Assembly (NCBI GenBank): GCA_008638375.1
Contig: CM018035.1
Span: 29,359,307-29,423,306 of the forward strand
Direction of reading: 5' to 3'
Length of the DNA: 64,000 nucleotides
DNA from: Nyssa sinensis
Lineage: Eukaryota > Streptophyta > Magnoliopsida > Cornales > Nyssaceae
The first letter of the stretch is position 1. Every line of letters begins with the position of its first letter. The position numbers were made by a program, and so were the translations under genes. Below the pieces are notes generated by a model. That model ran no database searches. It was not told where the DNA came from and saw only the letters and a list, made by a program, of their open reading frames with translations. Positions 2,103 to 50,216 of this stretch are shown here, piece by piece.

Positions 2103-5100
2103 TGTAACACCCCAAGCTTAGTCCCCGGCTAATTAATGTAATGAAGCTCTTTTTGGAAGCTAATGTAGTATTTTAGCTATTTAAATCCAATTTTTAACAC
2201 TAACGGAATTCGAATTAGCTAGCTACAGAAATTCCAAGGGATTAATAATCGACATTAAACCTTGGATATTGAAGCTAACCTAAATAGGAAGTGACTAGAA
2301 GAAACTGCGTCGAAAAAGGAACAACGGAAAAGAAAATAGCTGAAATGGAATTCTGCACCTGCCAAACGAGGCCTAAGCCAAAAATAAGGAAAAATAGCCA
2401 AAAGTGAGGCCAGGGGGAATTGAACCCTTGACCAAGTGGGGCAAGACTCTTGTTACCCAAAAAAATATCAAGTGGACTGCTACTATTTTTGTGTTTAAAT
2501 ATGCAACCAATTTGTACTTAAACCCCAATTAGCCAAGGCCACCTCCCAAATTGGCCAATGGCCATGCATGCAATCCCCCGCATCATTACCCCACATCACC
2601 CCTTTCACCTTAGATCAGCCACCAAACCCACTAAGTCTGATACACTCATATACACCCATGTATATGTATAGCTTATATGCAAGAGAAATGCCATATTATA
2701 TATATATATATATACATACATACACCTCACACTCTTGACTCTCTAGAAGATCAGTGCACTCTTTAGAACTGTATGTGAGTGTGTGCTCGTGAAGTTGGCT
2801 GAGAGAGTGAGTATTAGAGAGAGGAGAGAAAATGCATAGTGTGAGAGGGAAAGGTGACCACATTCAAGTGTGTGCATGCATGTGAGTGTCTTCAAGTATA
2901 CCTGAAGAAGTCTGGGCAAATTGAGGAATGTTTGGAAGGTCAAAGTCAAGCTATAGAGAGAGGAACTCACTGTTAGAGGTATAACCTCAAAATTGTTCAT
3001 TTTCTTATTTGGATTACTATGCTGTTTTTTAATGTTTTGAGCCCTATTAGTTGTATGCATGAGCTACTGTGACATTAAAGACTATTATAGAACTAATTAG
3101 GAAGGCCAATGGGGCTTGAAGAACCCTAAAACCGTAGGAACCGCCATGGACGACCTCAAAATTGTAGGTCTGAAACGACTTCCATAAAACTGATTTTTGA
3201 CATCCAAGACCTAAAATAGATCTTGTAGGCATCCCAAATTCACCTAGAAACGACCAAAAATCTCAAAGGAAGACCCTCAAATATGGAGTTGCAAGATTCG
3301 GCCATAAAACCCAGCCCTAGTTTTAGGTTCTTAAACCACAACTTTGGAATGGGGGTTGAACCTCCTTGTCATGAGGATCACTTTAAGCTAAACCACGCAC
3401 GTTTTGGTGGTGAATCGAGGATTTACCAGTCAGTTCTAGGATTGATTATTCCTCTATGAATCGAATGTTTGAGCTCCGATTTAAACACCAAATGAATGCC
3501 AAATCAGTCCTAGGGTTCCCAGAAACACCTTAGGGTTGAAAGCAGAGTGTAAAACATCTTGAAAAGCCACGAAATTGAGAAGAACCGAAACTGTAACTAG
3601 GGCAATAGTACACTGTGATGAAGAAGACGACAAGTCAACCGAGTCGACTCGTCCAATGCGTCCAGACCCACTGAATTGACTCAAACACGTGTCAAGCTAC
3701 GGGCAAGCCACATCCTTATTGAAACTGTGTCATTTTGAGGTTTTATTTAAACTGAAATTTGACCTGTTTGGTTACAGATGTAGGAAATTGGAATCAGGTT
3801 TAGAATAATCCTAAATGTAGATAAGAGGTGTATGAAGACTATGCTATTCCGGTTCTTGATGGTCAGGTGGACCGGCTGGTTCACCATACTGCTGGAGCGG
3901 TCTAAGGTTTACTAAGGTAAACCCAATGGTTTTAGTAAATTTCTTAAAAAAAGAAAACCGGAACTTTCTTAAATTAGATTTCTGACCCCAACAGTTTTAC
4001 AAATTTGTATTGTGGCCCACTTCTTGGAATTCTTATGTAAATACACCCCTGGAAAAATAATAAAATAATTATTTTATTAAATAAAAAAAAATTACTATTT
4101 TGCGCTTGGACATTAAATGGGTCAAACGAAGTCCAAATAAAATAAATAAATAGTGTATTTTTACTATTTCAGGCATTCTGGACTCAATGGTGGAGTTTGA
4201 TTTGGGAAATTAAGTCCCAAAAAATAAGACACGTAAATAGTAAATAACTGTACTACCCCTGATGATACCGAGGGCCAAATAAAAATAAAAGATAGTCCAT
4301 TTTGATTATGTCGGATGCTCCGAACTCAACGGTGGGGCCAGTACTAGCAAACGAAGTACCGAAAAATATGACACGTGAAATGACCAAAATACTCCTAAGG
4401 TACTCGAAGCCAAATGAAAAGCCGAGAGGGCCTAAATTAACTTTCTTCGGTGTTCCGGACCCAATGGTGAGGTCCATATTACGAAAACAAAACGAAAAAA
4501 TATGTGAAGTCATGGAAATGAACCTTATGGTTTAATGAAACTACTAGAAGAGTAATAAATTAAATGAGATTCATCCTAACACGTTAAATTATGTTTTAGG
4601 TAAAAACCCCACATAGACTGTCATGGATGAAAAGGATAAGAAACCAAAGGAATTCACAATCATGACCAAGGCACAAAGGGCAGCTGATAGGAAACAGCCG
4701 GAATTCATGAAAGACTTGCTATGGCAACAAAAAGTAATCGCTAGGAAGATAAGGATTGCTAAAACGACTAAGATCGTCTCCGTTAGACCCTTTATCTACA
4801 AAACTCCCATCGTTCCAATGGGACGACTAATGGAAGAGGCAGTCGCAAGAAGGCTGACTGAGAAAGCCCTAAAAGAGGAAGAAGAAAGGGAGAACACTAA
4901 ACACTGAGTGAAATGCTTCAAAGGTAATATCTACAAATAGGTCACTGTGAGTTAGTCCAATTCTAAACGAATGAAACCCGTCATAGAGTTAGGCTTACTC
5001 AGTCTAAGATCACAAGTTGACGGAATCTTTATAAATTGTTTTAGGCTTACTGAAAGAAAGAGGAAGGCACAGTCAGTACCATCAACCTCAAAGCTTAAAG

Positions 5101-5851
5101 GTGAGTAACTTTTAACACTGTCTAGATATTGTATTTTGATTCACTGTACCGTTTTGTATACTGTTTAAATGCAATTACTTAAATGCATGCCCTTTCGTAC
5201 TATATATCACTTATGACATGATTTTAGTCTTCTTTATATAATTGACTATACTCTTGATTGATGTGCTAGCATCCTGTACTGTTCTGCCCGTTTTGATCTG
5301 TTGTATTAAAAATGGATTTATTAAACCATTATTTCTGAAGTGATTAAACTAACCATGTGATTATAGGCAAGAACGGGTTTTGAAAACCTTGACAGGGAAC
5401 CTGTGTTACTCATTGGGCTTATTTAAGCTCACCCCATTATCCTAATATTTTTCAGGTGAAGGATCCAATGGCCAGGATTAGCGGGCCGTGAACCTAAGGG
5501 AAATATTTTGAAGAACCCCATGAACATATCCCATTTTTGTATATCACCTCATTTTTGGATGTTTTGTGTAACTAAACACACTATGGAGTTACTTTTGTAA
5601 TCAGATTAAGTAGGACTAACTATGGATGTACTTTGATGCTCTGCCAAGTAAATATGCATTCTCTTGTTAATTTTCGCTGCTTAACTCATGTACATTGAAT
5701 GCATTATGCTTGAAAGTTACCAGTGAATGGCCTATGGTTAGGATTACCATCGGTGCTTTAATCATTTCAAAGAAAAAAAAAAACCCGATGGGTGCCTAAC
5801 TGGCTAGTCGCATGTCTTAAATCCGCACAGGATGGGTTTGGGGATGTGACA
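2103..5851 (+). mobile_element. Solo LTR of family A (Tekay/Del-like), 3749 bp
   Basis: Starts TGTAACACCCCAAGC and ends GGGGATGTGACA. It is flanked by perfect 5-bp direct repeats GATTT (2098-2102 and 5852-5856), so the borders are exact. No primer site or coding region follows: this is a solo LTR left by LTR-LTR recombination. It is a diverged relative of the LTRs at 36299-40023 and 44781-48506, sharing the antisense tRNA-like module, the ~135-bp repeat array, the embedded three-exon gene and the terminal CCGATGGGTGCCTAACTGGC region. Confidence 0.9.
4623..5481 (+). pseudogene. LTR-embedded small gene, diverged copy with one frameshift
   Basis: Copy of the gene at 38825-39612. Exon 1 is 4623-4923, exon 2 is 5045-5100 (56 nt) and exon 3 is 5456-5481 (26 nt, TAG at 5479-5481). 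The introns begin GTAATATC and GTGAGTAACT and end TTTTAG and TTTTTCAG. Unspliced, exon 1 reads as 94 residues ending at TGA 4905-4907. Compared with the intact copies it lacks one base just before that stop, which breaks the phase into exon 2. In the 50-codon core that starts FTIMTKA, 36 residues match the copy at 38825; 20 of those 36 codons differ silently and most replacements are conservative (K/R, D/E, V/I, T/S). Function unknown. The protein is lysine/glutamate rich and probably helical. Splicing is inferred from motifs and conserved phase, not from transcripts. Confidence 0.6.
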
Positions 5852-13753: not shown

Positions 13754-13780
13754 ATGAATGATACTATTCACCACGGTTGT

Positions 13781-17584: not shown

Positions 17585-17615
17585 ATAACATACAGTGATC
17601 CTTTCTTGTTGAAAT

Positions 17616-25099: not shown

Positions 25100-27182
25100 G
25101 AATTACTTCCATTGGATTAGAAGGTACTATGACATGACGTGAATAGGCCAAGTGGCATTGCAAATAAGGATCAGATGGCACTGATTTGTAGAGACTTACA
25201 TTCTTGTGAATCGAATCCGTATATCCAGGTAAGTGATATGATACGGCTGACTTGATTGACATGCACTAGATATTGGAACATGGCTCATGGAACTAAATGG
25301 TACTCTAGAGATATTAGATCTGCTATGTTGTTATATGCTTGATTTAGATATGCTCTGAGATTAGAATTGTTGACTGACTGGATTTAGTCTTGCTCTGTGA
25401 TACATATTCTTATGATGGATAAGTGAGTTGCATTCCCGTGACACAAAGAAAAAGTTTTAAATTCCGCTGCATCTGACCCTACAGTTGGAGTGCAATTCAT
25501 CGGAAAGTTCAGAATTTGCCTTTGGTTGGTCGCGTCGCGACCGACTGGCAGTCACGTCCTCGACATCCGCGTAGGGTGGGGTTCGGGATGTGACAGAGAG
25601 AGAGGGCGATTGAAGGCTGTTGGGGGAGGTCGGAGCTCCGACAGAGAGCCGTCGGAGGAGATCGAGGGTTCTGGTGAGGGGTCTGTGCGACGGGAGCCGC
25701 GGGGCTTCGTGGGAAAAATTCGGCAAGTTGGTGCAGCGGGCGGCTAACCGACGGTGAGTAATTTGGTGAAGAAGATCTGTTGCAAAGGAGCTACTGCTGG
25801 AGGATCTGGTTCGATTCCTGAAGTAGATCGGAGCAGACGAGGGATGTGTATGTATACATATATGTATGTGTGTGGATGTTACGATTTTGCGGGATGGCTC
25901 TCGGTATGGTGTAGCGATGGAGTAGCAGTGGGTTTTAGGATTTCCTGTGGCGAGTAGAGCTGTGAGTTGCAGATTGAATGGGAGCATGAAGCATCAGCAT
26001 ATTGGTACAGGGGAAGACTGATTCAGCCGAAACCAATGACCAAGATCCGATTCAGATCTGGGTATTTAGTTTCAGTGTAGTGAATCCTCAATAAGGGCCT
26101 TGGAGACGTTATGGTTGAAGGCGTAGCATCAGGTATATATATGTGTAGCAGTGAAGGAGAGGGACGGACAGTGCTGCTGCTATGGCCCATTTTAGGGAGA
26201 AAACAGAGGATAGTTTGGGAGTCTTGGTGTAGGGCTGAATCACGTTGGGTGTGTGGATCGTTGGAGAGTCGGCTGGGTTGGATTTGTTGATTCGGTTGTA
26301 TCCATGTTGGAGGAGATGTATGTATATATATATATATATTGGAAATTGATTTATGTTGAGGATGAAGAGGGACCAGTGCTTGCAGCTTGAGGAACTTGAT
26401 GAAACTGAAGCAGAATAGGCTTCAGCCGTAGTTGGCATCAGGTGAATGGAAGCTTGTACCGTTGTCTGATTGAGGGGTTTGGTTTGCATAAGGGGTCGGC
26501 TGGTATTGTAAATTAATTGGGAGAGTTACAGTTGGGGGCAGCAGGTTTGGATGTTGTGCAGTTGAGGTTGGTCTGAATAGGACTAGGGATGGTATCTGTG
26601 GCTGTGGAGCTACTTCCGTTAGGAGATTTGTGTGTTTAAAAATGGGGACAGACTGTTGGACACATTTTAAAGCAACAGAGCAGCTTGTTGATGGGAGGCA
26701 GTTGCGGCAAGAAGAAAGTGGTAGAGGTTTGTGGGTTGCGTTGGCTGTTGGATTACAAACTGCTGGCCGATTCAAATGGGTTAGGTTCAGGACCTACTGG
26801 TTTTGAGAGAGATCAAAGAGAGGAGACTCTATTAGTGCATTTAGGTGAGGGTCAGTTTAGTAGGGGTTGTCACTCCATTTATGCAGTGATGATGAATGAG
26901 AATTCAAGGATGGTCATGTGATGCTTGGTGTTGGATGGTTTAAGCTCCAATTTCAAATAGTTGGTGAATGTGACTACTGCAGGAGTGCGGTAGCACCGGC
27001 TATTCAAGATGGACTGAGTTTAGTGAGAAATTTAAATACTGGTCTTGTTGATGTGATTTTGGAGTGGATTTGTTGATCAGGTCCTGCGGCTGGTGTTCAT
27101 GAGTTGAAACAGTGGCTTGGAAAGGACGGATTGTGATTAGAATTGGATGGATGATTGAGGGGGACTGATTCACATAAGGAAG

Positions 27183-31251: not shown

Positions 31252-34200
31252 TGTAACACCCCGACTCTGTATAATTAATAATTAAATAATTAATTATTAA
31301 TTAGTACCGGCTTAGGGAATAATTAAGGAAATTAACCTTAATCTCCCGGTGGTCATACTAGACCAATAGAATGACAAAACATGTCCGAGAATAGGGTATA
31401 ATACCCGAACCTAATTATCCATTAATTAGGTGAAATAATGTCAATTTAACACTGACGGAATTCGAATTAGTTAATCCTGAAAATCTCGAATGATTAATAA
31501 ATGACACGGAACCTCTGACACTGAAGATAACAGAAATAGAAACTGACCGGAAGAAACCGCACCGAAAAAGGAGTTACGGAATGAAAGTTATGAGGCAAAC
31601 ATCAGAAACTGAATTAATGCGCAGCCAAACAGGGCCTTAGCCCAAATTGTGGAAAAATGACCAAATTGGTGGTCAAGGGGAATTGAACCCTTGACCTATG
31701 GAAGGAATGAATCTCACCCAAAAACTTAACCAGGTGGCCATCCAGCACCTTTGTGCCTATATACAACTTAATTGTATATATCTCTGATTTGCCCCAACTT
31801 GCCACCCAATTGGACCAATGAGGTCTCATGCAGCCCACATATGATATATATAATATATGTTTATATATATATATATATATATATAATAGGAGATTCAATT
31901 CTGATTGGACCACCCTCTCCACCAATGGGAGTCCATGCAACAAGTTAATTTATAAAATATATACATGTCTATGCTTGTATATATTATGTCTTGTGTGTCT
32001 CGTGGGGGAGGGGGAGGAAACTAGAAATCCAAAACAGATCTCTGTGCTTGTGATGATGGATCTGCTAGAGAGAGAATTTATAGAGAGAGAAGGCCTTGCA
32101 TGTGTATACACATGTGTCCATGGTGTGTGTGTCTTCATTGGAGATGCACCAAAAAGGAATTGAGACATGGTTGAAGCTCTGAAGTGCCCAAGGACTGAAC
32201 CACGAAGCATGGGAACATGGACAGTGGTTGGTTATGAGGTATATTTTCAAAATTTGCTTCAATTCTTGATCTGAAGTTTTGGGTACTGTTTTGTGCATTG
32301 TAGAACTAGAATTGCATGCATGCTAACTAGTTGATGAGGTCTGGGTTATTTAGGCTTGAAATGGACCATCAAACTGCTTGGAATTCAAGCAAAAACACAA
32401 AATCTGCCATTAATGGACCTGCACTGAATAGGGTCTGATCAACCTCCACCGAACTTGATTTGAGTTACCCAGACCTGAACTAGACCCCATTAGGTGTCTA
32501 AAAATCACCATCCGCGACTGAAACTCACACGGGTAGACCCTCAAAACCGAACCTATAGGTCTCGGCCATGGAACCCAAACTCGAAAATAGGCTCTTGAAC
32601 TGAAATTCATAAATGGGGAATTGAAGCCCCTATCCTAAGGGTCACAACAAGCCAAGAATCGTGCAATTTGGTTGAGAAACGAGGCCCCACGACCGAACTG
32701 AAACTCTGTGCGATAATCGGCTATACAGAGTTTAATCCGTGGATTCGATGCATGAAATGGATGCCAAAACATTGGCATGACACCTAGGGACTGATTGGAA
32801 CCAAAACAGTTGGAAAACGTGCTTGAAATGGCACGAAATAGAGAAAAAATGGGGACTGGTATTAGGGCAACAATACCCTGCGTGATGGGGAAGACAGAGT
32901 CGACTCGGTCGACTCGCGTGTCGACCCAGACACGTGTCGGTCTACGGGCGTGCCACTGCTTTAGTGGAACGGCACCGTTTTGATGTTTGATGTTTTAAAT
33001 TTAAAATCAAATTCTGGCTGTTTGGTTACGGGCTTTAAAAATTAAAATTGAGATTAGGGGCAATTGAAACACGGATAGGGACTAAAATTGGGGTCATTAG
33101 GGATATGCTATCCCGGTTTTCTGAGGGACCCTGAACCGGTTGGCTTCTTTGAATTCTGGACCGGTTCAACTGATGAACCCTTGGGTTTGAACCCCTAAAT
33201 TATGAAATTATGTTTTAACCCCAAATGATTTCTGAAAATTACGGATTTACCCCTGACAGTTTTAAAGAATTACACAGTGGCCCAGACTTTTGAAAATTTA
33301 TACATTTAAGCCCTGAATAAATTAATTAAATAATAAAATAATTATTTAATTATTTTATTAAATAGGTAAAATTACAATTTTACCCCTGGACATTAAATAT
33401 GTCAAACGAAGTCCAAATTAAGTAAATAAATAGTGTATTTTCACTATTTCAAATATTCTGGACTCAATGGTACAGTCCAAATTGGGAAATATAGTACCGA
33501 AAAATACAGACCTGTAAGTGATAAATTACTGTACTGCCCCTGATGGCACCAGACCCAAATAAAAATAAAAGATAGCCTATTTTGACTATCTCGTGCACTC
33601 TGGACCCAATGGTGAGGTCCATTTTATGAACTGACGTGCCGAAAAATACGACACATGAAATTACCAAATTACCCCTGATACCGTACGAGACCTAAATAAA
33701 GTCCGATTGAGACGAAACTGATACCGGTAGGAGCGCAGACACTGGTGAGACTGTATACTTGATTAGATGACGAATCGGGGTCAGAATTATACAAAACGTA
33801 AAATGACCAAAATACCCCTGAGCACTGTAAGTGCAAAGTAGAGGTCAAACTGATCTGATAAATTATCATAGGGATAATTATGAACACTGAAGGGCTAAAT
33901 AAGACTCCGAGACAGTCAACGCGTAAAACGAGAAATGACCGATGTGTCCCGACGATCTAAAGCAGATATCAAATGAAGTCCAAGGGACTTATAAATTTAT
34001 ACATGAGATATATGGGACGTTCTGAGGACCATGATAGGGTCCGGGGCAAAAATAATAAAATTACTATTTTGCCCCTAAGACTAAATAAGTACCCAACTGA
34101 TACCGATTAAAGTCTAAAAGACTTAAAACTTCATATATACGATATATGGGATATTCTGAGGACCATAACAGGGTCCGGGATAAGAATGGCAAAATTACCA

Positions 34201-34644
34201 TTTTGCCCCTATGGTTAAAATAAGAACCTAACTGATACCGATTGGAGTCCAAAGGACGTAGAACTTTGTACTTAAGATATAAAGACTATTCCGAAGACCA
34301 CGACAGGGTCCGGGACAAGAATGGTAAAATTACCATTTTGCCCCTAAGGTTGAATGAGTGCCTGACTGATAACAATTGAAGTCTAAATGACTTAGGATAT
34401 AATCCTAATAACTGCTAAGCCTAATTAAAGAAAGAAATAGCCTCGAGTGAGACCCAATGGAAGGGCGATAGGCTACTAGGCTACCTTAGGTAATCCGATA
34501 GATACCTAAGATGACGAATGAGACCTGAATGGATGAGTTCTGATCTGTCTGTGATTGATGATTATTATTCAGGATATACATGGAGATGCCTGACGTACCT
34601 GGAGGTTATCGGATTATTTATGCAAGGAAATAAGCGTAAAGTTT

Positions 34645-36130
34645 GTGAGTAACTTCTGACACTGTTTTGATACTGTCCCTTGATTTACTGATCTGTTTTG
34701 AATGCAAATATTTAAGTGCAATTATTTAAATGCAAGTTTTCCGTACTATATCACTTATGACATGGTTTTAGTCTTTTTAAATAATTGACTATATTCCTGA
34801 TCCCTGTGCTAGCATTCCGTACTGTTTTGCCTGTTTTGAACTGTTGAGATAAAATGGATATATTGAACCATTATTTCCGAAACGATAAAATAAACCATGT
34901 GATATAGGCAAAGAACAACATTTTGTTGTATCGTACCGATTTGTATAGTATACTGTCTGAATGCTATATTGTTTAAATGTATGTACTTAATGTACGCCCT
35001 TTGTACCACATTCCACGTGATGTGCTTGTGTCCTTCGAATTAGGAATTCCGTTCAGTTCGGTTATGTGCTGTCCGTTAATGATATGTCTGCCTCGGTTGT
35101 TATGTTCCGTCCGGTTCTGATATGTTCGGTCCGTAATGATGTTAAGTCTGTCTTGATTGAAATATGGTCCAGTTCCGTTATGATCTATCCGTTCATGATA
35201 TGTCTTTGTTTCGACTGATGTATTGTTCCGTTCGATTCTGTTATGTTCCGTTTGTTGATGATCTGTCTGTCTTGATTGATATATGGTCCAGTTCCGTTAT
35301 GATCCGTCCGTTAATGATGTTAAGTCCGCTTTGATTGATATATAGTCCAGTTCCGTTATGATCCGTCCGTTGATGATATGTCTTTGCTTTGACTAAAGTT
35401 TTGTTCTGTTCGATTCTGTTATGTTCCGTTCATTGATAATGTGTCTGCCTTGATTGATATATGGTCCAGTTCCGTTGTGTATTGTCCGTTGATGATACGT
35501 CTGTCTTAATTGAAATATTGTTCAGTCCAGTTATGATTAGTTCCGACAGTGATGTTTCCCTGACTTGATTGTTATATTGTTTCTACCCGGTTCCGTTATG
35601 ATGTGTCCTGCTCATGATTTGCCTGTGTCCTGATTAGTGTATCGTTTCCGTTTAGTTCCGTTATAATTTTATCCGTTCGCGATATGCCTTTGCTTGACTG
35701 ATGTATTGTTACCGTCCGATTCCGTTATATTCCGTCCGTTAATGTTATGTCTGCTTCGATTGATATGTTCCGTCCGGTTCCGACATGTTCCGTCCGTTGA
35801 TGATCTGTCTGTCTTGATTGATATAAGGTCCAGTTCCGTTATGATTCGTTCCGTTAATGAAGAGTCTGTGTCTTGACCGATATATTAGCAATAGTTATTG
35901 TTCTGACCGATTGGTTATGTCATGTTCCGATCCGTTTGTATTGTCTGTTCGATTCTGTTTTATTGTACTAGACTGCTTATGAAATGGATTTATAAAAATA
36001 GTTATTTTTGAAATGACTAAATTATCCCTGTGCCTTGGAAGCACAAAACTGGTTTTGAAACCCATGATAGGGAATCTGTGTTACTCACTGGGCTTATTTA
36101 AGCTCACCCCATTATTCTGACATTTTTCAG
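34645..36130 (+). other. Intron-like unit with tandem repeats, 5' LTR of B
   Basis: GTGAGTAACTTCTGACACTG to TTTTTCAG. From 35040 to 35940 it consists of degenerate units with GGTCCAGTTCCGTTATGATC and TGATATGTCTGTCTTGATTG. The region is much longer than the ~346-bp unit in family A, so the repeats have expanded. Confidence 0.55.
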
Positions 36131-36293
36131 GAATTACCTCCATTGGATTAGAAGGTACTATGACATGACGTGAATAGGCCAAGTGGCATCGCAAGTAAGG
36201 ATCTGACGGCACTGAATTGTAGAGACTGGTTTATTATGGATTGAACCTGGTTATTCCGGTGAGTGGTATGTTATGACTGACTTGACTGATATA

Positions 36294-36298
36294 TATAG
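36294..36298. repeat. Target-site duplication TATAG of element A (second copy 48507-48511)
   Basis: Perfect 5-bp repeat. The intact target is preserved once in B's 3' LTR at 54631-54635, which gives a direct empty-site comparison. Confidence 0.97.
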
Positions 36299-36626
36299 TG
36301 TAATACCCCAATTTTGTAACTGACATGTTTTGTATATGAGAAAACTGTTTTGGGAATGAAATGTCAGGTTTAGCTAATTTAATGCCTATTTTTAATAGTG
36401 ATAAAACTCGAATTAGCTAATTAAGGGAAACTCGAGAAAATAAAAATTGACATTGAACCTTGGTCAATGGAAGATATTCTGAGTAGGAAGTGACAGAAAG
36501 AAACTGCACTGAAAAAGGAGTTACAGATTGGGAGTTAATGCCAAAACAGTGAAACTGGAATTTAGCGACAACCAAACAGGGCCTTAACCAGAAAATAAGA
36601 GAAAATGGTCACTTGGGAGGCCAAGG

Positions 36627-36684
36627 GGAATTGAACCCTTGACCTACCAAGGTAAGCAACTTTGTCTCAAAAAGTTACCAACTA
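36627..36684 (-). promoter_or_regulatory. Antisense tRNA-like module (A and B box) in LTR A
   Basis: On the minus strand: TAGTTGGTAAC (36684-36674, A-box-like), then about 37 bases later GGTTCAATTCC (36637-36627, B-box-like) within GGTCAAGGGTTCAATTCCCC. This resembles the head of a tRNA-derived SINE. Equivalents: 45109-45166, 20651-20708, 31679-31689 (B box), 49993-50003 (B box), 2416-2426 (B box). Pol III activity is unproven. Confidence 0.5.
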
Positions 36685-37871
36685 GGCTGTTGGTTACTTT
36701 GTGCATAAATACAGCAATATATGTATATAACCTATAATCTGCTCAAGCCACCACCCAAAGTGGCCAATGGCCTTGCATGCATTCCCTTCATCATAGCCCT
36801 CCATCACCTCCATCAAGTCAGCAGTCACAAACCCACTAAGGGTAGAGATACACTCATATGTGTATAGCCCTATATGTACATATATATATACATAACTTGC
36901 ATCAGATTCTCTCTTTAGAGAATTCTGAAATTCTGAAAACTGAGTCATACGTGAGGGATTGAGAGAGAGTGAGGGTGAAGTGTGGAGAGAGAGAGAGAGA
37001 AGGGAGATTGTGCATGCAAGTGAGAGAGGAAATTGGCAATTGAAGTAAAGGCTTGAGGATTTCATGCATGACCTGAGGAACTTGAGGACACTGTGAGAGG
37101 TCTGGGTCGAGCCATAACCGAGAGGGACAGCACTGTGAAGGTAAAAATTCTAAAATTATCTTCAATTCTTGTTTTGTAGATTTTGAATTATTTTGATGAG
37201 TTGCTACGGCTATAGACTACATGCATGCCTCATTATTGACTCTAGGAACTGTTTTGAGTGTATAGCATGGCTTAGAAGTCTCGGATAGATCAAAACCCAT
37301 GAAACCCGAGACCAACCTCCATTGATGAACCTTGGAAACCCAGGTCTGAATCGACCATAACAGTTCAGAGTTTTGAGTGTCAAGGCCTGAAATAGACCCC
37401 AAGAGGATCTCAAATATGTACCTACGCGACCTCGAGACTCACTGTAGCCCCACGAAATTGGAAATGAACCTACGGGTTTAAAATCCAATCCGTTAAAACT
37501 CGAGACTAAACTGAAATATATAAATAGGGTCTTGATCCTTAGAGTTTGTAGGTCACGTAGCTTCAAACCACACACGAAATGGTTGAGAAATGAGGGTGCT
37601 AGATCGAGTTGCAGGTCACGGTTACTCCCTTGAAAACAGAACTTGTTGGGTTGATTTGATGCCCAAAATCGATGCCAAAGTGTTGGTGTGACCCTCAGGA
37701 GTCGATACCACCCCAAAACAGCAAGAAACCGCACCCTAAAACTCACGAAATAGAAGCTAAAAATCTGCAGAAAATAGGGCAACACCGAGTCAGTTTGTGG
37801 AGAAGACGGAGTTGACTCGGCTGAGTCGACCGAGTCGATCGAGTCGAGATGGGTTGGGCCGAGCCAACTCG

Positions 37872-37881
37872 GACACGTGTC
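37872..37881. promoter_or_regulatory. G-box palindrome GACACGTGTC
   Basis: Perfect 10-bp palindrome with an ACGTG core, preceded by GAGTCGA-type repeats. Also at 46354-46363, 21906-21915, 32929-32938 and 51258-51267; a shorter ACACGTGT version is at 3685-3692. Confidence 0.5.
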
Positions 37882-37954
37882 TGTCCCAGGGACTGCCACT
37901 GCATTAATAAAGCTGCGTCGTTTTGAATAAATAGTTTTTTAAATTTAATTGAGG

Positions 37955-37977
37955 GCTGACGTCATCGTGACGTCAGC
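37955..37977. promoter_or_regulatory. Palindromic pair of TGACGTCA boxes (5' LTR of A; second copy 46436-46458)
   Basis: Arms GCTGACGTCA and TGACGTCAGC around TCG. Both LTRs of A keep it unchanged, and LTR E has the same structure. It is missing from family B and from the solo LTR at 2103. Confidence 0.65.
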
Positions 37978-38824
37978 AATGTAACAGACCGGTCAGAACC
38001 GGACTGAACCGGACCGGTTCAGTTGTAAAGAGACTGAACCCTTTGGTTCAGTTTTGAACTTTTAAATAATTGCAAATTGACCCTCCACTGTTTGACAGAA
38101 TTATACTAAGGCCCAGATTTTTAAAATCTTTTGCAATTATACCCCTGAAAAATTAAATAAAATAATAAAATAATTATTTAATTATTTTATTAAAAGGGGA
38201 TAATTACTATATTGCCCCTGGACCCTGAACGAGTCAAACCAAGTCCGAATTTAATGATTGAATAGTGTAATCTTACTATTTCGGGCACTCCGGACTCAAT
38301 GGTGGAGTCCGATTTGTGAAACCAAGTCCCGAAAAATACAGACATGTAAAGGGTAAATGACCATACTGCCCCTAATGACACATAGGGCCAAATTTCACTG
38401 AAAGATAGTCCATTTTAACTATGTTGGACATTCCGGACTCAATGGTGAGGTCCGTGACTACAAATAAAGTACCGAAAAATACAACATATGAAATTACCAT
38501 AATACCCCTGACACTGTACAAGGCCTAAATGAAGTCCGATTAAAACGGAATCAATACTAGTGATTGACCTGACACTTGTGAGACTGTATGCGTGATTAGA
38601 TGACGAATCCGAGACAGAAATTATGTGACGGCAAAAATGACCAAAATACCCCTGATATACCCGAACCCAGATTTAAAAGCCGAGAGAGTCTAAATTGACT
38701 TTCTTCGACCTTCCGAACTAAATGGTTAGGTCCATAATATGAAAATCAGAACCGATAAATATATGAAGGCATCTGTTCTAACATGTCAAACTGTGTTCTA
38801 GGTAAAAATATCACTTAAACTACC

Positions 38825-39612
38825 ATGGACAAACAGGGCAAGAAATTCACCATCATGACTAAGGCAGAGAGGTTAGCCGATAAGAAACAGCAAGAGTTTA
38901 TGCAAGAATTACTGAGGCAGCAAAGAGTTATAGAGCGCCATATTAGAATAGCTAAGTCCACTGAAATCGTTTCCATCCAGCCCTTCATATATAAGGCACG
39001 TACTAAGGAAATGATTGCCGAGGCCAAGATGAAAAAACAGGAAGATACTGAAACCCTAAGCCAAATGCTTAAGAGGTAAAAACCTAAGAACTAGCCACTA
39101 TAAGTTAGTTCCATGAAACCCATCATAGGGTAGACTTACTCAGTCTAAGGTCATGAGTTGATAAATCTTTATAAATTGTTTTAGGCTTAAAGAGAAAAAG
39201 AGGAAGGCTCCGTTCCTAGCTTCAAATTCAAATATTGAAGGTGAGTAACTTCTGACACTGTTTTAGTTACTGCTCCTTGATCTGTTAAATTGTTTCGAAT
39301 ACCATATGTTTTGAATGCAATTGTTTTAAATGCATGCTTTTATCACCGATGACATGGTTTTTAGTTTCTCAAATGATTAACTATACTTCTGATTGATATG
39401 CTAGCACTCTGAACTGTTTATTTGTTTTGATCTATTGAACTTGACTTGGATTTATTGAACTATTAATTCCAAACTGATTTACTTAACCATGTGATTTAAG
39501 CAAAGATTGAATTCGAAACTCTTGCCTGGATATCTGTGTTACTCACTGGGCTTTCAAAGCTCATTCCATTATTTTAATAATTTCAGGGGAACCCTCAGAT
39601 GGACAGGTTTAG
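38825..39612 (+). CDS. LTR-embedded small gene, three exons (5' LTR copy)
   Basis: Exon 1 38825-39075, intron AG/GTAAAAACC...TTTTAG, exon 2 39185-39240, intron GTGAGTAACT...ATTTCAG, exon 3 39587-39612 with TAG at 39610-39612. This gives 110 codons plus stop. Without splicing the frame would stop at TAA 39077-39079, two bases past the donor (84 residues). Residues 8-14 are FTIMTKA; the centre is glutamine/arginine rich (RQQRVIERHIRIAK) with a conserved SIQPFIYK. Exon 2 adds a basic KEKKRKAP stretch that could be a nuclear localisation signal. Protein function unknown; no zinc finger or catalytic motif seen. The start ATG sits 44 bases after TGTTCTAGGTAAAA, similar to the solo copy. Evidence for a real gene: same exon 2 and 3 lengths, phases and stop as the diverged copy at 4623-5481, and mostly silent or conservative codon changes. 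No transcript evidence. Confidence 0.65.
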
Positions 39613-40029
39613 CAGGTCCAGAACTTAGGGGGAAAAAGTTGGAGACCCCCAAATAGAATGATAACCCATTTTTGAGAATCTATATCATTTTTGTACTTTT
39701 GTGTAACTGAACAGACTATGACCTTTTGTAGTGGAACTGTTTTGTAATCTTAATTAAGATAGGTCTGACTATGATATATCCTGAATGCTCTACCAAGTAT
39801 ATATGTATGCATTCTCATGTGAATATTCCGCTGCTTAAACTATATATGTTGAATGCATTATGCTTGGGATTTAGATCGGAATGGCCTTTGGTTAGGATTA
39901 CCGTCGGGGTTTGTTTTCAAAAAAAAATAAAAAAAAAAAAAAACTGATAAAACCCGATGGGTGCCTAACTGGCCTTTGCCACGTACCCCAAATCCGCACA
40001 GGGTGGGTCTGGGGGATGTGACAAAAGAG

Positions 40030-40041: not shown

Positions 40042-40212
40042 AACAGGTTTGAAAGTCAGTATAGACCAGAACCTTAGGGTTATTTAAACACTGAATCCTT
40101 AGAAAGCGAATACTTAAGTCATAGAAATTCTGAATCGATGAACAACCTGAATGACATTCTTACTATGACACATTGAATGAGGATACTTAGAATACTTTTT
40201 ATCTTGCTTCAG

Positions 40213-43200
40213 ATGTCGCCTCGAACTAGGAATAGCAATAGGGGACCGCAGGCCCCAACGGAGAGCGTAGCCCTACGGGAAATGAGGGCCACATTAGCTC
40301 AATTCGGCCAGGCCATTGAGGGACTATCAAGAACCTTACAGCAACACCAGGCCGGACCAGCAAATAACCCGGTAGAGCCTCCGGTAGTTCCGCCTCCGCC
40401 TGCCCCAGCACAACCGTTGGAAACTGGCATTCGTAATGACTTGTTAGATCGCTTCCATAAGCTCAAACCCCCGACCTTCGATGCTGTTACCGACCCTGAG
40501 AAAGCTGAGCTGTGGGTCATGTCAATGGAAAAGACCTTTAAGCTCTTGATTTGTTCGGAAGCCGAGAAAGTGATGCTAGCCACTTACATGTTACAGGGAG
40601 AAGCTTACAAGTGGTGGCTCGAGATGCAAGTACAGAATCCTGCCATTACCTGGGCCGATTTTATTGAAAAGTTTTATGGCATGTTCTTTCCCCCTACAAT
40701 CCGGGAGAGAAAAATTCAGGAGTTTGCCACCCTAAAACAAGGGGACATGACCGTAATTCAATATGCAGCCAAGTTCTCTGCATTGTCCAGATTTGCTTCC
40801 TTTTTGGTGAGGGAAGAGCATAATAGGGCAAGGAAATTCCTCGCAGGTCTTCGGATCGGGATACGGACTAAAGTCTCGGCCTTTGAACTACACACCTATT
40901 CCGATGTCCTTAACAAAGCCCTAGTTATTGAAAAGGACATGGAAGAGTTCAACCAACTGAAGGACCAGGAAAGAAAGAAAAAGGGCAAAAACATTAAGAA
41001 GGAGCAGCCGAGCAAGAAGCAAAGGACTGAGGGCCCAAGTAAGAGCAACAAGGGTCAGAAGAAAACTGAGGAAGTGTCCAGATGCCCTCACTGCCAGAAC
41101 CTACACCCTGGAGAATGTCGTCGACTGACTGGTGCATGCTACCGATGTGGAGATAAGGGGCACCAAGTCAAAGATTGCCCGCAACATCCACCAATCCCGA
41201 GAGCCCCTACCTTGACTACCAGCACCGCAGAACGGAAGCCTATTCCAGTACCTCTTGCCAAGACAAAGGACAAAGGCAAGGAGCCACAAGGCCGCCCGGG
41301 AAGAGTCTTTGCACTGCTACCAGGAGACACCTCTGCTGCAAATGCTGTAGTAGCAGGTATAATCCCGATTTCTAGAATTCCTGCATATGTGTTGATTGAC
41401 CCTGGATCCACGCATTCTTTTGTGTCTCCATCTTTTGTTGATAAACTGCATAAGATACCTGAACCTATGGATGAACTGTTATCGGTACAAATTCCTTCTG
41501 GGATGTCAATGATTGGGTCCATGATTCTTAGGGACTGTAGAGTAATGATTGGAGACCAGGAGTTGTTAGTCAATCTAATACCCTTAGCAATAAAGGGGTT
41601 TGATGTGATATTGGGCATGGATTGGTTGTCACACAATCATGCCACCATCGATTGTTTTGAGAAAAGTGTATTGTTTCAGCCCCCGGGACAGCCCGAGTTT
41701 ATGTTTAGGGGAAAGGGGATTACCCCACCACCCTACCTAATCTCTGCCATTCAGGCAGGGAGGTTATTAAAGAAAGGGTGTCGTGGTTATTTATGTAGTG
41801 TCTTGGATACCCAAGCCCAGAATCCCCCACTGCCTGAAGTACCAGTTGTGTGTGAATTTCCCGACGTGTTTCCAGATGAACTACCGCAAGGAACGGTTGA
41901 TCGAGAGATCGAGTTTTCCATTGATCTTATCCCTGGAACTCAACCTATATCCAAAACTCCCTACCGAATGGCCCCATCAGAGTTAAGGGAGTTGAAAGCC
42001 CAATTAGAGGAATTGTTGGAGAAAGGGTTTATCCGACCCAGTGTATCTCCTTGGGGAGCACCCGTGTTGTTCGTGAAAAAGAAGGACGGCTCCCTAAGAC
42101 TGTGCATTGATTACCGTGAGCTAAATAAAGTGACGGTAAAGAATAAGTACCCTCTTCCGCGTATCGATGAGTTGTTTGACCAGTTACAAGGGGCAAGTGT
42201 ATTTTCTAAAATTGACTTGAGATCGGGGTACCATCAACTCAAAGTCAAGGACACTGATGTACCAAAGACAGCCTTCCGTACCCGATACGGCCACTATGAG
42301 TTCCTGGTCATGCCTTTTGGCGTGACTAACGCCCCTGCCGCGTTCATGGATTTAATGAACCGGGTTTTTAAATCGTATTTGGACAACTTCATCATTGTGT
42401 TTATCGATGATATACTAGTATACTCGCGGAACGAGGAAGATCATGAAAGACATCTGGGAATAGCACTACAAACCCTGAGAGAGCACAGACTGTATGCAAA
42501 ATTCAGCAAGTGTGAATTCTGGTTGTCCAGCATTACCTTCTTGGGCCATGTGATTTCCAAAGAAGGCATCGCTGTTGATCCACAGAAGGTGGACGCTATA
42601 TTGGATTGGCCCCAGCCGACCACTGTAACAGAAGTCAGAAGTTTTCTTGGACTGGCTGGATACTACCGACGTTTCGTGAAAGATTTCGCAAAGCTGGCCA
42701 AACCGCTCACACATTTGACCAAGAGTAATGTACCATTCATTTGGGCTGATGAGCAAGAAAAGAGTTTCCAGCTGCTAAAAGAGAAGCTGACCACAGCGCC
42801 AGTATTGACTATTCCCTCCAGAGAAGGGAAGTTTGTCATTTACTGTGACGCCTCTTATAAGGGACTGGGTTGTGTCCTTATGCAGAATGATAGAGTCATC
42901 GCCTATGCTTCCCGACAGCTCCGACCTCATGAGCAAAACTATCCTACCCATGATCTAGAATTAGCTGCAGTGGTGTTTGCCCTAAAAATCTGGCGCCACT
43001 ACCTATATGGGGAGGTGTGTGAGATTTTTACTGATCACAAGAGTTTGAAATATTTCTTCACACAGAAGGAATTAAACATGAGGCAACGAAGATGGCTAGA
43101 ACTAATTAAGGATTATGATGTGGCTATTCAGTACCATCCGGGTAAGGCAAATGTGGTGGCCGACGCCTTGAGTCGACGATCTGGAAGCCTTGCCTACATG

Positions 43201-43621
43201 ATTACCTCTCAGGAGGAGTTAATTCGAGATCTGGATGAAATGGGTATCGAGGTAGTTCCACCAGGTAGCACGGCTTGTCTGGCCAATTTGACTGTTGGAT
43301 CTACATTGGTGGAGCGAATTAAAGCGGGACAGACTCAAGATGAGGAGTTGATTAGAATCTGTGATGAAGTAAAGGCAACGGGGAAAGCTGATTTTGAAAT
43401 TCAGGACGGAATTCTACGGTATCGAGGTAGGTTGTGTGTGCCCAAGATACCCGAGTTAAGAAAGGAAATTCTGGAAGAAGCCCATGCCTCGAGATTCACG
43501 ATACACCCTGGGATTACGAAGATGTATCATGACCTCAGGGAGTTATACTGGTGGACCGGATTGAAGAAGGACTGTAGCAAATTTTATTGCTCACTGCACA
43601 CGATGCCAACAGGTGAAAGTT
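40213..43621 (+). CDS. Gag-pol of element A: gag, protease, RT, RNase H, start of integrase (frame broken)
   Basis: I prefer the ATG at 40213 ([13 protein letters not shown]) over 40177, because the 12 codons before it are hydrophobic and unlike gag; CTTCAG directly precedes it. Numbering from 40177: gag core with [20 protein letters not shown] near 150, zinc knuckle [14 protein letters not shown] at 321-334, protease [12 protein letters not shown] with catalytic Asp 408, RT with [20 protein letters not shown] and catalytic FIDDILVYS at 742-750, and RNase H with [13 protein letters not shown] near 889. The integrase zinc-binding start (H...H) is reached near 1110. One extra T in the run 43582-43585 shifts the frame before the CxxC, and translation ends at TGA 43621-43623. 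Otherwise the frame is clean for more than 3.3 kb, which with 0.35% LTR divergence marks a recent insertion. Confidence 0.93.
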
Positions 43622-44731
43622 GAGCATCAACGTCCTAGCGGACTTCTGCAACCACTCCCTATTCCGGAATGGAAGTGGGATCATATTACCATGGATTTTG
43701 TGTCCGGTTTTCCCAAGTCACCGAAAGGCTCTGATGCTGTCTGGGTCATAGTGGACAGATTGACCAAGTCTGCTCACTTTCTACCTGTCAGGACCACTTA
43801 TAGCTTAGAGAAGTTTGCCGCATTGTACATTCAGGAAATTGTACGCTTACATGGCACACCATTGTCCATTGTATCCGATCGAGATCCCCGATTTGTGTCT
43901 CGATTTTGGAAAAGTCTACAGGAGGCACTCGGCACGGAACTCAAGTTCAGTACAGCATATCACCCACAGACTGACGGACAATCTGAAAGAGTGATACAGA
44001 TATTAGAGGATATGCTGCGACTGTGTGCACTGGACTTCAAAGGAAACTGGGCAGAGCATCTGCCACTTGTCGAGTTTGCCTATAATAACAGTTATCAATC
44101 CAGCATTAAAATGGCACCGTATGAGGCACTATACGGGAGGAAGTGCCGATCTCCACTTTGCTGGATTGAAACCGGTGAACAGAAGCTGCTTGGGCCAGAT
44201 TTAGTCCAAGCCACTACGGAACAAATTCAGAGAATCCGGAACAGACTGCAAACGGCCCAGAGCCGGTACAAAAGCTATGCTGATAATCGGAGGAAGGATC
44301 TTGAATTCCAAGTAGGCGATCTTGTGTTTCTTAAAGTGTCGCCACTAAAGGGAGTACTTCGATTCGGCAAGAAAGGCAAGTTAAGTCCTCGTTACATTGG
44401 TCCTTTTGAGATATTAAAGAGAATTGGCCCGGTTGCATATAGTCTGGCATTACCGCCTGAGTTGGACAAGGTACACCGTGTATTTCACGTATCCATGTTA
44501 CGGAAGTGTATACAAGAACCGGGGCAAGTCATTGAGTATGAGCCACTCAAGTTGAGAGAAGACTTAACGTATGAAGAACGACCAGTCCAGATTCTTGATC
44601 GAAAAGAAAAGACTTTGCGTAACAAGGCAATTCCGTTAGTCAAAGTCTTGTGGAGAAATCACACTAGTGAAGAAGCAACCTGGGAACTTGAAGCTGAAAT
44701 GCATGAAAAATATCCCGAGTTGTTTACTTGA
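43586..44731 (+). CDS. Pol of element A: integrase core and chromodomain, shifted frame
   Basis: Continues the polyprotein in the next frame (first ATG at 43613). The catalytic triad is visible in [25 protein letters not shown] and [16 protein letters not shown] (D, D, E). The GPY/F-type module follows ([20 protein letters not shown]), then [13 protein letters not shown]. The end ([20 protein letters not shown]) is a chromodomain-like fold typical of Tekay/Del chromoviruses, which can direct insertion to heterochromatin. The product needs the upstream part to work, so the copy as read is probably inactive unless the T insertion is a sequencing error. Confidence 0.93.
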
Positions 44732-44780: not shown

Positions 44781-47700
44781 TGTAATACCCCAATTTCGTA
44801 ACTGACATGTTTTGTATATGAGAAAACTGTTTTGGGAATGAAATGTCAGGTTTAGCTAATTTAATGCCTATTTTTAATAGTGATAAAACTCGAATTAGCT
44901 AATTAAGGGAAACTCGAGAAAATAAAAATTGACATTGAACCTTGGTCAATGGAAGATATTCTGAGTAGGAAGTGACAGAAAGAAACTGCACTGAAAAAGG
45001 AGTTACAGATTGGGAGTTAATGCCAAAACAGTGAAACTGGAATTTAGCGACAACCAAACAGGGCCTTAACCAGAAAATAAGAGAAAATGGTCACTTGGGA
45101 GGCCAAGGGGAATTGAACCCTTGACCTACCAAGGTAAGCAACTTTGTCTCAAAAAGTTACCAACTAGGCTGTTGGTTACTTTGTGCATAAATACAGCAAT
45201 ATATGTATATAACCTATAATCTGCTCAAGCCACCACCCAAATTGGCCAATGGCCTTGCATGCATTCCCTTCATCATAGCCCTCCATCACCTCCATCAAGT
45301 CAGCAGTCACAAACCCACTAAGGGTAGAGATACACTCATATGTGTATAGCCCTATATGTACATATATATATACATAACTTGCATCAGATTCTCTCTTTAG
45401 AGAATTCTGAAATTCTGAAAACTGAGTCATACGTGAGGGATTGAGAGAGAGTGAGGGTGAAGTGTGGAGAGAGAGAGAGAGAAGGGAGATTGTGCATGCA
45501 AGTGAGAGAGGAAATTGGCAATTGAAGTAAAGGCTTGAGGATTTCATGCATGACCTGAGGAACTTGAGGACACTGTGAGAGGTCTGGGTCGAGCCATAAC
45601 CGAGAGGGACAGCACTGTGAAGGTAAAAATTCTAAAATTATCTTCAATTCTTGTTTTGTAGATTTTGAATTATTTTGATGAGTTGCTACGGCTATAGACT
45701 ACATGCATGCCTCATTATTGACTCTAGGAACTGTTTTGAGTGTATAGCATGGCTTAGAAGTCTCGGATAGATCAAAACCCATGAAACCCGAGACCAACCT
45801 CCATTGATGAACCTTGGAAACCCAGGTCTGAATCGACCATAACAGTTCAGAGTTTTGAGTGTCAAGGCCTGAAATAGACCCCAAGAGGATCTCAAATATG
45901 TACCTACGCGACCTCGAGACTCACTGTAGCCCCACGAAATTGGAAATGAACCTACGGGTTTAAAATCCAATCCGTTAAAACTCGAGACTAAACTGAAATA
46001 TATAAATAGGGTCTTGATCCTTAGAGTTTGTAGGTCACGTAGCTTCAAACCACACACGAAATGGTTGAGAAATGAGGGTGCTAGATCGAGTTGCAGGTCA
46101 CGGTTACTCTCTTGAAAACAGAACTTGTTGGGTTGATTTGATGCCCAAAACCGATGCCAAAGTGTTGGTGTGACCCTCAGGAGTCGATACCACCCCAAAA
46201 CAGCAAGAAACCGTACCCTAAAACTCACGAAATAGAAGCTAAAAATCTGCAGAAAATAGGGCAACACCGAGTCAGTTTGTGGAGAAGACGGAGTTGACTC
46301 GGCTGAGTCGACCGAGTCGATCGAGTCGAGATGGGTTGGGCCGAGCCAACTCGGACACGTGTCTGTCCCAGGGACTGCCACTGCATTAATAAAGCTACGT
46401 CGTTTTGAATAAATAGTTTTTAAATTTATTTGAGGGCTGACGTCATCGTGACGTCAGCAATGTAACAGACCGGTCAGAACCGGACTGAACCGGACCGGTT
46501 CAGTTGTAAAGAGACTGAACCCTTTGGTTCAGTTTTGAACTTTTAAATAATTGCAAATTGACCCTCCACTGTTTGACAGAATTATACTAAGGCCCAGATT
46601 TTTAAAATCTTTTGCAATTATACCCCTGAAAAATTAAATAAAATAATAAAATAATTATTTAATTATTTTATTAAAAGGGGATAATTACTATATTGCCCCT
46701 GGACCCTGAACGAGTCAAACCAAGTCCGAATTTAATGATTGAATAGTGTAATCTTACTATTTCGGGCACTCCGGACTCAATGGTGGAGTCCGATTTGTGA
46801 AACCAAGTCCCGAAAAATACAGACATGTAAAGGGTAAATGACCATACTGCCCCTAATGACACATAGGGCCAAATTTCACTGAAAGATAGTCCATTTTAAC
46901 TATGTTGGACATTCCGGACTCAATGGTGAGGTCCGTGACTACAAATAAAGTACCGAAAAATACAACATATGAAATTACCATAATACCCCTGACACTGTAC
47001 AAGGCCTAAATGAAGTCCGATTAAAACGGAATTAATACTAGTGATTGACCTGACACTTGTGAGACTGTATACATGATTAGATGACGAATCCGAGACAGAA
47101 ATTATGTGACGGCAAAAATGACCAAAATACCCCTGATATACCCGAACCCAGATTTAAAAGCCGAGAGAGTCTAAATTGACTTTCTTCGACCTTCCGAACT
47201 CAATGGTTAGGTCCATAATATGAAAATCAGAACCGATAAATATATGAAGGCATCTGTTCTAACATGTCAAACTGTGTTCTAGGTAAAAATATCACTTAAA
47301 CTACCATGGACAAACAGGGCAAGAAATTCACCATCATGACTAAGGCAGAGAGGTTAGCCGATAAGAAACAGCAAGAGTTTATGCAAGAATTACTGAGGCA
47401 GCAAAGAGTTATTGAGCGCCATATTAGAATAGCTAAGTCCACTGAAATCGTTTCCATCCAGCCCTTCATATATAAGGCACGTACTAAGGAAATGATTGCC
47501 GAGGCCAAGATGAAAAAACAGGAAGATACTGAAACCCTAAGCCAAATGCTTAAGAGGTAAAGACCTAAGAACTAGCCACTATAAGTTAGTTCCATGAAAC
47601 CCATCATAGGGTAGACTTACTCAGTCTAAGGTCATGAGTTGATAAATCTTTATAAATTGTTTTAGGCTTAAAGAGAAAAAGAGGAAGGCTCCGTTCCTAG

Positions 47701-48506
47701 CTTCAAATTCAAATATTGAAGGTGAGTAACTTCTGACACTGTTTTAGTTACTGCTCCTTGATCTGTTAAATTGTTTCGAATACCATATGTTTTGAATGCA
47801 ATTGTTTTAAATGCATGCTTTTATCACCGATGACATGGTTTTTAGTTTCTCAAATGATTAACTATACTTCTGATTGATATGCTAGCACTCTGAACTGTTT
47901 ATTCTGTTTTGATCTATTGAACTTGACTTGGATTTATTGAACTATTAATTCCAAACTGATTTACTTAACCATGTGATTTAAGCAAAGATTGAATTCGAAA
48001 CTCTTGCCTGGATATCTGTGTTACTCACTGGGCTTTCAAAGCTCATTCCATTATTTTAATAATTTCAGGGGAACCCTCAGATGGACAGGTTTAGCAGGTC
48101 CAGAACTTAGGGGGAAAAAGTTGGAGACCCCCAAATAGAATGATAACCCATTTTTGAGAATCTATATCATTTTTGTACTTTTGTGTAACTGAACAGACTA
48201 TGACCTTTTGTAGTGGAACTGTTTTGTAATCTTAATTAAGATAGGTCTGACTATGATATATCCTGAATGCTCTACCAAGTATATATGTATGCATTCTCAT
48301 GTGAATATTCCGCTGCTTAAACTATATATGTTGAATGCATTATGCTTGGGATTTAGATCGGAATGGCCTTTGGTTAGGATTACCGTCGGGGTTTGTTTTC
48401 AAAAAAAAATAAAAAAAAAAAAAAAACTGATAAAACCCGATGGGTGCCTAACTGGCCTTTGCCACGTACCCCAAATCCGCACAGGGTGGGTCTGGGGGAT
48501 GTGACA
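44781..48506 (+). repeat. 3' LTR of element A
   Basis: Same borders and content as 36299-40023. Differences include the CCAAT-like change near 45240, a double change near 47068 and the longer poly-A near 48408-48426. Confidence 0.95.
47306..48094 (+). CDS. LTR-embedded small gene, three exons (3' LTR copy)
   Basis: Exons 47306-47556, 47666-47721 and 48069-48094. Protein identical to the 5' LTR copy: the only exon difference is a silent ATA/ATT change near 47413. Another change lies in intron 1 and a 1-base insertion in intron 2. Because the retroelement transcript starts in the 5' LTR, this copy could also be expressed from the 3' LTR's own promoter into flanking DNA. Confidence 0.65.
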
Positions 48507-48511
48507 TATAG

Positions 48512-49565: not shown

Positions 49566-50174
49566 TGTAACACCCCGACTCTGTATAATTAATAATTAAA
49601 TAATTAATTATTAATTAGTACCGGCTTAGGGAATAATTAAGGAAATTAACCTTAATCTCCCGGTGGTCATACTAGACCAATAGAATGACAAAACATGTCC
49701 GAGAATAGGGTATAATACCCGAACCTAATTATCCATTAATTAGGTGAAATAATGTCAATTTAACACTGACGGAATTCGAATTAGTTAATCCTGAAAATCT
49801 CGAATGATTAATAAATGACACGGAACCTCTGACACTGAAGATAACAGAAATAGAAACTGACCGGAAGAAACCGCACCGAAAAAGGAGTTACGGAATGAAA
49901 GTTATGAGGCAAACATCAGAAACTGAATTAATGCGCAGCCAAACAGGGCCTTAGCCCAAATTGTGGAAAAATGACCAAATTGGTGGTCAAGGGGAATTGA
50001 ACCCTTGACCTATGGAAGGAATGAATCTCACCCAAAAACTTAACCAGGTGGCCATCCAGCACCTTTGTGCCTATATATACAACTTAATTGTATATATCTC
50101 TGATTTGCCCCAACTTGCCACCCAATTGGACCAATGAGGTCTCATGCAGCCCACATATGATATATATAATATAT

Positions 50175-50216
<42 letters not shown>

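Follow-up and report, generated by a model that had tools for sequence, protein, structure and literature searches.

The long terminal repeats (LTRs) of plant retrotransposons are generally regarded as regulatory sequence; one LTR-encoded protein is the superantigen (sag) of mouse mammary tumour virus (MMTV). The additional open reading frames (ORFs) of plant LTR elements, known as aORF or eORF in Grande, RIRE2, Retand, Athila and Bagy2, are placed by the pertinent section of a review in the internal region, mostly between pol and the 3′ LTR (PMC7264820), and the eORF threshold given in the relevant part of a 2019 survey is at least 250 codons (PMC6317226). Ogre and EVADE appear in the intron passage of another source as plant LTR elements with functional introns, exceptions to a general lack of introns (PMC12786077). 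The Caenorhabditis elegans Ty3/gypsy retrotransposon Cer1 makes the protein CERV from spliced RNA, and CERV is needed for export of the unspliced genomic RNA, according to the passages that deal with it (PMC10309623). Here, a 64,000-nucleotide stretch of Nyssa sinensis DNA (the window; assembly GCA_008638375.1, contig CM018035.1, forward-strand positions 29,359,307 to 29,423,306) was analysed, in which both LTRs of a retrotransposon, element A, carry a small three-exon reading frame. With moderate confidence, the A LTR is read as holding a protein-coding, probably spliced accessory gene, for which a role like that of Rev or CERV is tentatively proposed.

The window contains nested plant LTR elements, referred to as A, S, B1, B2, D and C (Table 1). 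The frame had been proposed in the initial annotation for the A LTRs and for a diverged copy at 4623, and this was confirmed in part: segments 38825-39075, 39185-39240 and 39587-39612 of A join into one 110-residue product that closes at a TAG, and the frame was recovered in three LTR copies, all of them inside LTRs (the two of A and the solo LTR S). Without splicing, the frame stops at TAA 39077-39079, right behind the intron-1 donor, giving a product of 84 amino acids (aa). The exon-1 protein is identical between the two A copies (83/83 residues) and the coding exons of the two LTRs differ by a single, silent base; the frame is intact in both A LTRs, which belong to one element, and broken in S. 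When the 64-kb window was searched by tblastn, exon 1 was found only in the two A LTRs and S (next match E 3.3), and none was detected in B1, both B2 LTRs, D or the partial C. ORF length was rejected as evidence of coding, an ORF of at least 84 aa being found in 35 of 300 shuffled LTRs.

The coding signal was obtained by comparing two LTR lineages only, the young A (38825) and the diverged solo LTR S (4623), and the tests covered 50 core codons (38846-38995) and 7 codons at the end of the 83 in exon 1. In the core, 16 codons were identical, 20 had silent changes and 14 had replacements, which agrees exactly with the count of 36 identical residues made earlier. Differences by codon position were 10/6/29, and the bias was seen in both halves of the core (4/3/11 and 6/3/18). 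When the same substitutions were set at random on A in base-matched shuffles, 36 residues were never retained in 20,000 trials (mean 23.0, standard deviation 2.3, maximum 32). The codon model gave an omega of 0.049 for the core (p 4.5e-10 vs omega 1), LWL85 a dN/dS of 0.14 and maximum likelihood 0.056, while dS was saturated with NG86, which yielded no usable value; dN/dS between A and S was thus 0.05-0.14 depending on the method, in support of the selection claimed for the core at the outset. As a control, the A/S LTR alignment was scanned in 3,340 windows of 150 bases, excluding those with more than 30 gap columns. The maximum third-position share (0.636) was reached at starts 38843-38849, that is in the core, and the best value outside the gene was 0.474. 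On the plus strand, 28 windows had no stop in either copy, all of them starting at 38819-38900; on the minus strand there were 85 such windows.

A comparable signal was observed across the proposed junction of exons 1 and 2, where TLSQMLKR-LKEKKRKA in A stands against TLSEMLQR-LTERKRKA in S. In this block of 16 codons, picked after the alignment had been viewed, the changes by codon position were 2/2/7 (third-position test p 0.039), and the codon model gave an omega of 0.043 (p 6.6e-4). Codon constraint on both sides of the junction supports a splice at this site. Exon 2 opens with a purine-rich stretch, the first part of which, LKEKKRKA, is codon-constrained. Between the A and S lineages, the exon-1 core and the start of exon 2 as far as KRKA were shown to be under strong purifying selection at the protein level, and that the frame is coding and selected is held with high confidence. 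Donors and acceptors are present at the proposed sites in A, and A and S agree in the final TAG and in the lengths of exon 2 (56 nt) and exon 3 (26 nt). From these sites and the junction, the frame is probably spliced.

The intron-2 sites, the donor GTGAGTAAC and a TTTCAG acceptor, recur in all six LTR families (A, S, B1, B2, C and D). In B1, B2 and C, the donor is accompanied by a TTTCAGG acceptor that has a shared motif upstream, and D has the donor and TTTCAGG; the LTRs of A, S, B1, B2 and C have in common a motif TTACTCAYTGRGCTT...AAGCTCAYYCC close to the acceptor. Since the sites are kept in LTRs without exon 1, LTR splicing seems to predate the gene or to extend beyond it, and it may be general in this group of elements. 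LTR D contains an exon-2-like piece of 55 nt (55811-55865) with an acceptor and a donor, which reads TTRKVGKRIISTNPKEP in one frame; despite this piece, LTR D gave no tblastn match to exon 1. A further intron, in the 5′ leader of A, is suggested by its candidate splice sites (Table 1), and a donor resembling that of the leader intron is present in S.

Within intron 2, an exact 9-nt complement of the donor occurs in both LTRs of A, and likewise in B1, both LTRs of B2 and C; S has an 8/9 match and D has none. In shuffled introns, such a complement arose in 0-16 of 2,000 trials per intron. The donor-complement sequences are related and hence are not independent cases. Folding covered five of the eight introns, and pairing of donor and complement was predicted in C (0.97-0.99), in B2 (0.85-0.87) and partly in B1 (0.31-0.32). 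Such pairing would mask the donor, so that intron 2 would be retained as genomic RNA needs. A local hairpin near the intron-2 acceptor was unremarkable (z -0.87).

Element A has two TG...CA LTRs, a primer-binding-site-like (PBS-like) sequence after the 5′ LTR and a short target-site duplication (TSD), as expected of an LTR retrotransposon. Its LTRs are 13 substitutions and 3 one-base insertions or deletions apart, and because they differ by so little the element is considered young. The pol region is interrupted, being split across two frames. The domain order gag, protease, reverse transcriptase (RT), RNase H, integrase is that of Ty3/gypsy chromoviruses; SH3_Tf2-1 was matched with E 9.7e-29, and beside it, after the integrase, a chromodomain match was obtained (E 2.3e-4, 21.5 bits) that lies under the Pfam cut-off of 25.1. 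The assignment of A to the chromoviruses, as first annotated, is therefore supported by gag, protease, RT, RNase H, integrase and SH3_Tf2-1, together with the sub-threshold chromodomain; the narrower Tekay/Del label of the initial annotation is putative. Near the start of gag, a splice-acceptor-like TTCAG (40208-40215) stands just before an in-frame ATG at 40213; this ORF contains a further ATG upstream, at 40177. Fusion to this acceptor was rejected: when exon 1, or exons 1 and 2, was joined to it, phases 2 and 1 resulted and the gag frame was not continued, and the gag ORF has the upstream ATG as well.

Element A was inserted in the 5′ LTR of B2, which itself sits within LTR D. The interior of B2 is about 0.7 kb long and has a PBS-like site; no ORF of at least 150 aa and no gag-pol were found in it. 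The frame is thus present in the one element bearing gag-pol and absent from the one two-LTR element without it. The initial annotation had stated that the gene is doubled in every full-length element, which does not hold for B2, the only other element with two LTRs, in which tblastn detected no frame. B1 is a mosaic: two pieces in its 5′ part resemble A at 85-90%, whereas its middle is closer to B2 (83%) than to A (about 75%), a pattern that suggests exchange between LTR families. Other remains in the window include broken caulimovirid-like (endogenous pararetrovirus) pieces on the minus strand at 12798-19636, in which a movement protein and RT-RNase H were recognised along with a sub-threshold match to a coat domain, and a Copia-type gag fragment (Pfam Retrotran_gag_2) at 7895-8350, also on the minus strand. 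The B2 3′ LTR contains an ATG-initiated ORF of 115 aa (50144-50491).

Table 1. Positions of element A, the frame in its LTRs and the other LTR elements, numbered from the first base of the window
Feature	Position	Strand	Remarks
A 5′ LTR	36299..40023	+	3,725 bp, TG...CA
A 3′ LTR	44781..48506	+	99.6% identity to A 5′ LTR
TSD of A, TATAG	36294-36298 and 48507-48511		5 bp
PBS-like TGGTATCAGAGC in A	40030		after 5′ LTR
A gag-protease-RT-RNase H and first part of integrase	40177..43623	+	
A rest of integrase, SH3_Tf2-1, chromodomain	43613..44731	+	different frame
TATA-rich tract, presumed promoter	36878..36898	+	near end of conserved 5′ LTR block
Candidate 5′-leader intron	37141..38801	+	GAAG/GTAAAA ... 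TTCTAG/GTAAAA
Exon 1	38825..39075	+	251 nt = 83 codons + 2 nt; selected core codons 38846-38995
Intron 1	39076..39184	+	GT...AG, 109 nt
Exon 2	39185..39240	+	56 nt
Intron 2	39241..39586	+	donor GTGAGTAAC
Exon 3	39587..39612	+	26 nt, ends TAG
Frame copy in A 3′ LTR	47306..48094	+	same three exons
Diverged copy in S	4623..5481	+	frame broken near exon 1 end
GTTACTCAC, exact reverse complement of intron-2 donor GTGAGTAAC	39538..39546	+	49 nt from intron 3′ end
Donor/complement pairs	39241-39249 with 39538-39546; 23786/25049; 34645/36080; 52982/54417; 62705/63455		
TTACTCAYTGRGCTT motif sites	39539-39566; counterparts 5406, 25050, 36081, 48021, 54418, 63456		
S solo LTR	2103-5851		TSD GATTT
B1 solo LTR	20222-25595		TSD GAGAG
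B2 5′ LTR	31252-36298, resumes beyond A, end 48833		about 5.4 kb
B2 3′ LTR	49566-54957		TSD AATAG; about 5.4 kb
LTR D	start 29380, resumes 54958		
LTR C	start 60695		partial, cut by window end

The predicted spliced product is basic (25 K+R vs 16 D+E, predicted pI 9.9, charge +8.6). For the exon-1 part, AlphaFold2 with a two-row alignment predicted a helix (13-45), a hairpin (47-58) and a second helix (61-83), with a mean pLDDT of 77 and a pTM of 0.38. A nuclear role might be guessed from the basic KRK stretch. In a collection of viral contigs, pattern matches were obtained for the exon-1 protein (5), RT-RNase H (4) and the two-row alignment (400), and in a collection of genome contigs there were 75; none in either collection was confirmed by tblastn, and both collections are non-plant, so that these negatives say nothing on plants. 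An origin of exon 1 from gag-pol was unsupported, the best BLASTP match to P0001 having E 4.0. Two other candidate genes were rejected. A counterpart in the B LTRs upstream of the shared intron 2 (RMRPEW... / RIRPEW...) showed B1/B2 differences of 9/6/11, with no clear bias. A minus-strand ORF of 229 aa in the A LTR (37210-37899) had no Pfam match; its alignment with B1 contained a one-base gap in 187 columns, and that with S was limited to a 58-column piece (E 6.8e-4) and weaker fragments.

Several results weigh against a spliced protein gene in the A LTR. In exon 1, 26 of the 83 codons (38825-38845 and 38996-39052) align with gaps and lie outside the tests. S, one of only two independent lineages compared, has a broken frame: its equivalent of exon 1 (4623-4923) is 301 nt long, the frame shifts and a TGA (4905-4907) precedes the donor, so that the full-length product cannot be encoded by S in its present state. 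As annotated at the outset, A and S agree in exon-2 and exon-3 length and in the final TAG; the annotated identity of both splice phases does not stand, since exon 1 of S has 301 nt vs 251 nt with the TGA before the donor, and the agreement is local only. The reading of the whole frame as protein-coding is supported for the exon-1 core and up to KRKA in exon 2, and unsupported for exon 3: the last 18 codons, after KRKA, were without significant constraint (omega 0.37, p 0.13), and exon 3 is for that reason proposed from its sites and length only. LTRs without coding exons keep the intron-2 sites, so intron 2 cannot exist solely for this protein. Pairing of the donor with its complement was predicted neither in A (0.0) nor in S (0.03-0.05), the two gene-bearing lineages, in which there is at best a hint of a donor-masking switch. 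Finally, no credible match to the product was found in Pfam (best E 0.075) or among PDB sequences (best E 0.99), and a Foldseek search of PDB and BFVD with the exon-1 model gave nothing at E <= 0.001. As a solo LTR, S is a relic in which decay of the frame is expected.

Conservation for non-coding reasons, as splicing enhancers, RNA structure or regulatory DNA, with the frame merely incidental, would agree with introns and flanks that are conserved as much as the exon or more, and with an ORF length within chance. Splicing can conserve the start of an exon where it is purine-rich, which is a caution for the junction signal as well, and the purine-rich start of exon 2 is typical of such enhancers. 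Against this, the core differences are concentrated at third positions (10/6/29), a bias stronger than elsewhere in the LTR alignment, and non-coding constraint gives no three-base period; the explanation is thus largely refuted for the exon-1 core and very unlikely overall, while exon 3 could still be non-coding. Exon 1 lies between the presumed transcription start and gag, and its frame ends just past the intron-1 donor, giving an 84-aa product that needs no splicing. It could therefore be an upstream ORF (uORF) of the gag messenger that controls ribosome access as a regulatory leader peptide, in which case the unspliced form is the one that matters. Peptides of conserved uORFs tend to be short, with the constraint at their end; the constrained part here is a 50-codon core near the N-terminus and the constraint runs on into exon 2, which makes a leader peptide quite improbable.

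The divergence of exon 1 bears on where the frame came from. Between A and S, third positions of the core differ at 29/50 (58%) and fourfold sites at 6/11, whereas introns 1 and 2 differ by 18.5% and 25.4% and the other aligned LTR blocks by 20.5-30.3%; by this measure exon 1 seems older than the sequence around it. Capture of a piece of host gene, with its introns, in an ancestral LTR would account for such an apparently separate history, and also for the host-gene-like exon-intron structure; the silent bias would then reflect selection in the host gene. A and S agree, however, in where the frame is inserted, in the sequence ahead of it, in the introns and in the lengths of exons 2 and 3, so that one ancestral LTR copy, with the changes accrued afterwards within LTRs, is the simplest origin, and on this comparison of A with S such a capture is judged unlikely. 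The excess divergence would also be explained by exchange of LTR segments between families, which the mosaic B1 suggests; alternatively, the introns may be constrained or silent divergence may have been selected for.

A gene kept by selection where gag-pol is present remains the best reading of these results. For such a gene, the LTR promoter would drive a transcript from which splicing removes the leader intron, intron 1 and intron 2, and translation of the spliced RNA would yield a basic protein some 110 residues long, with a KRK cluster and a predicted helix, beta hairpin, helix order; retention of intron 1 would shorten it to 84 residues. The unspliced RNA would be the genome and would have to leave the nucleus with the LTR introns retained. 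The small protein may bind the unspliced RNA of its element and favour its export or shield it from splicing, in the manner of Rev or CERV. Because genomic RNA would be exported with its introns while the protein would come from spliced RNA, such a role is the likeliest, although an export or anti-splicing function is put forward only tentatively, by analogy; capsid, anti-silencing or translational roles are the alternatives. B2, without gag-pol, need not encode the protein, and its lack of the gene fits a function that serves the element, as a single case. A bolder and rather doubtful version would make the LTR a complete split gene, with promoter, three or four exons and terminator, whose protein is the plant counterpart of Rev or CERV and frees genomic RNA from splicing of the LTR introns; families without gag-pol would parasitise it, keeping the splice sites only.

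If the frame holds across families, each solo LTR would carry a potential gene, and were the LTR truly a complete split gene, every insertion, solo LTRs included, would be a source of a small regulatory protein. Export of full-length RNA by plant retrotransposons has had no direct study so far, as stated in the passage concerned (PMC12786077), and would gain a candidate factor. Among the matches listed from the open-access full-text literature, no paper was recognised as a report of a plant LTR with a spliced, protein-coding gene; subscription literature was outside the search. The review and the survey look for extra genes in the interior, the survey from 250 codons, so a short spliced LTR gene would escape them by design.

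Compared with these systems, the frame of A is like the plant aORF and eORF in being an extra protein of unclear role beside gag-pol, but it differs from them in lying inside the LTR, in having 84 codons unspliced or 110 spliced and in being probably spliced. To MMTV sag, an animal retrovirus protein, the likeness is in LTR location only, with no evidence of kinship. Ogre and EVADE likewise have introns in a plant LTR element, whereas the introns proposed for A are within the LTR. A further likeness is to Cer1 CERV, the accessory protein of a Ty3/gypsy-type element that is produced from spliced RNA and acts on behalf of the unspliced genomic RNA, a role proposed for A by analogy only and not by sequence comparison; the LTRs of Cer1 are about 0.5 kb according to the part of the source describing them (PMC10309623), whereas those of A are 3.7 kb and hold the frame together with its introns.
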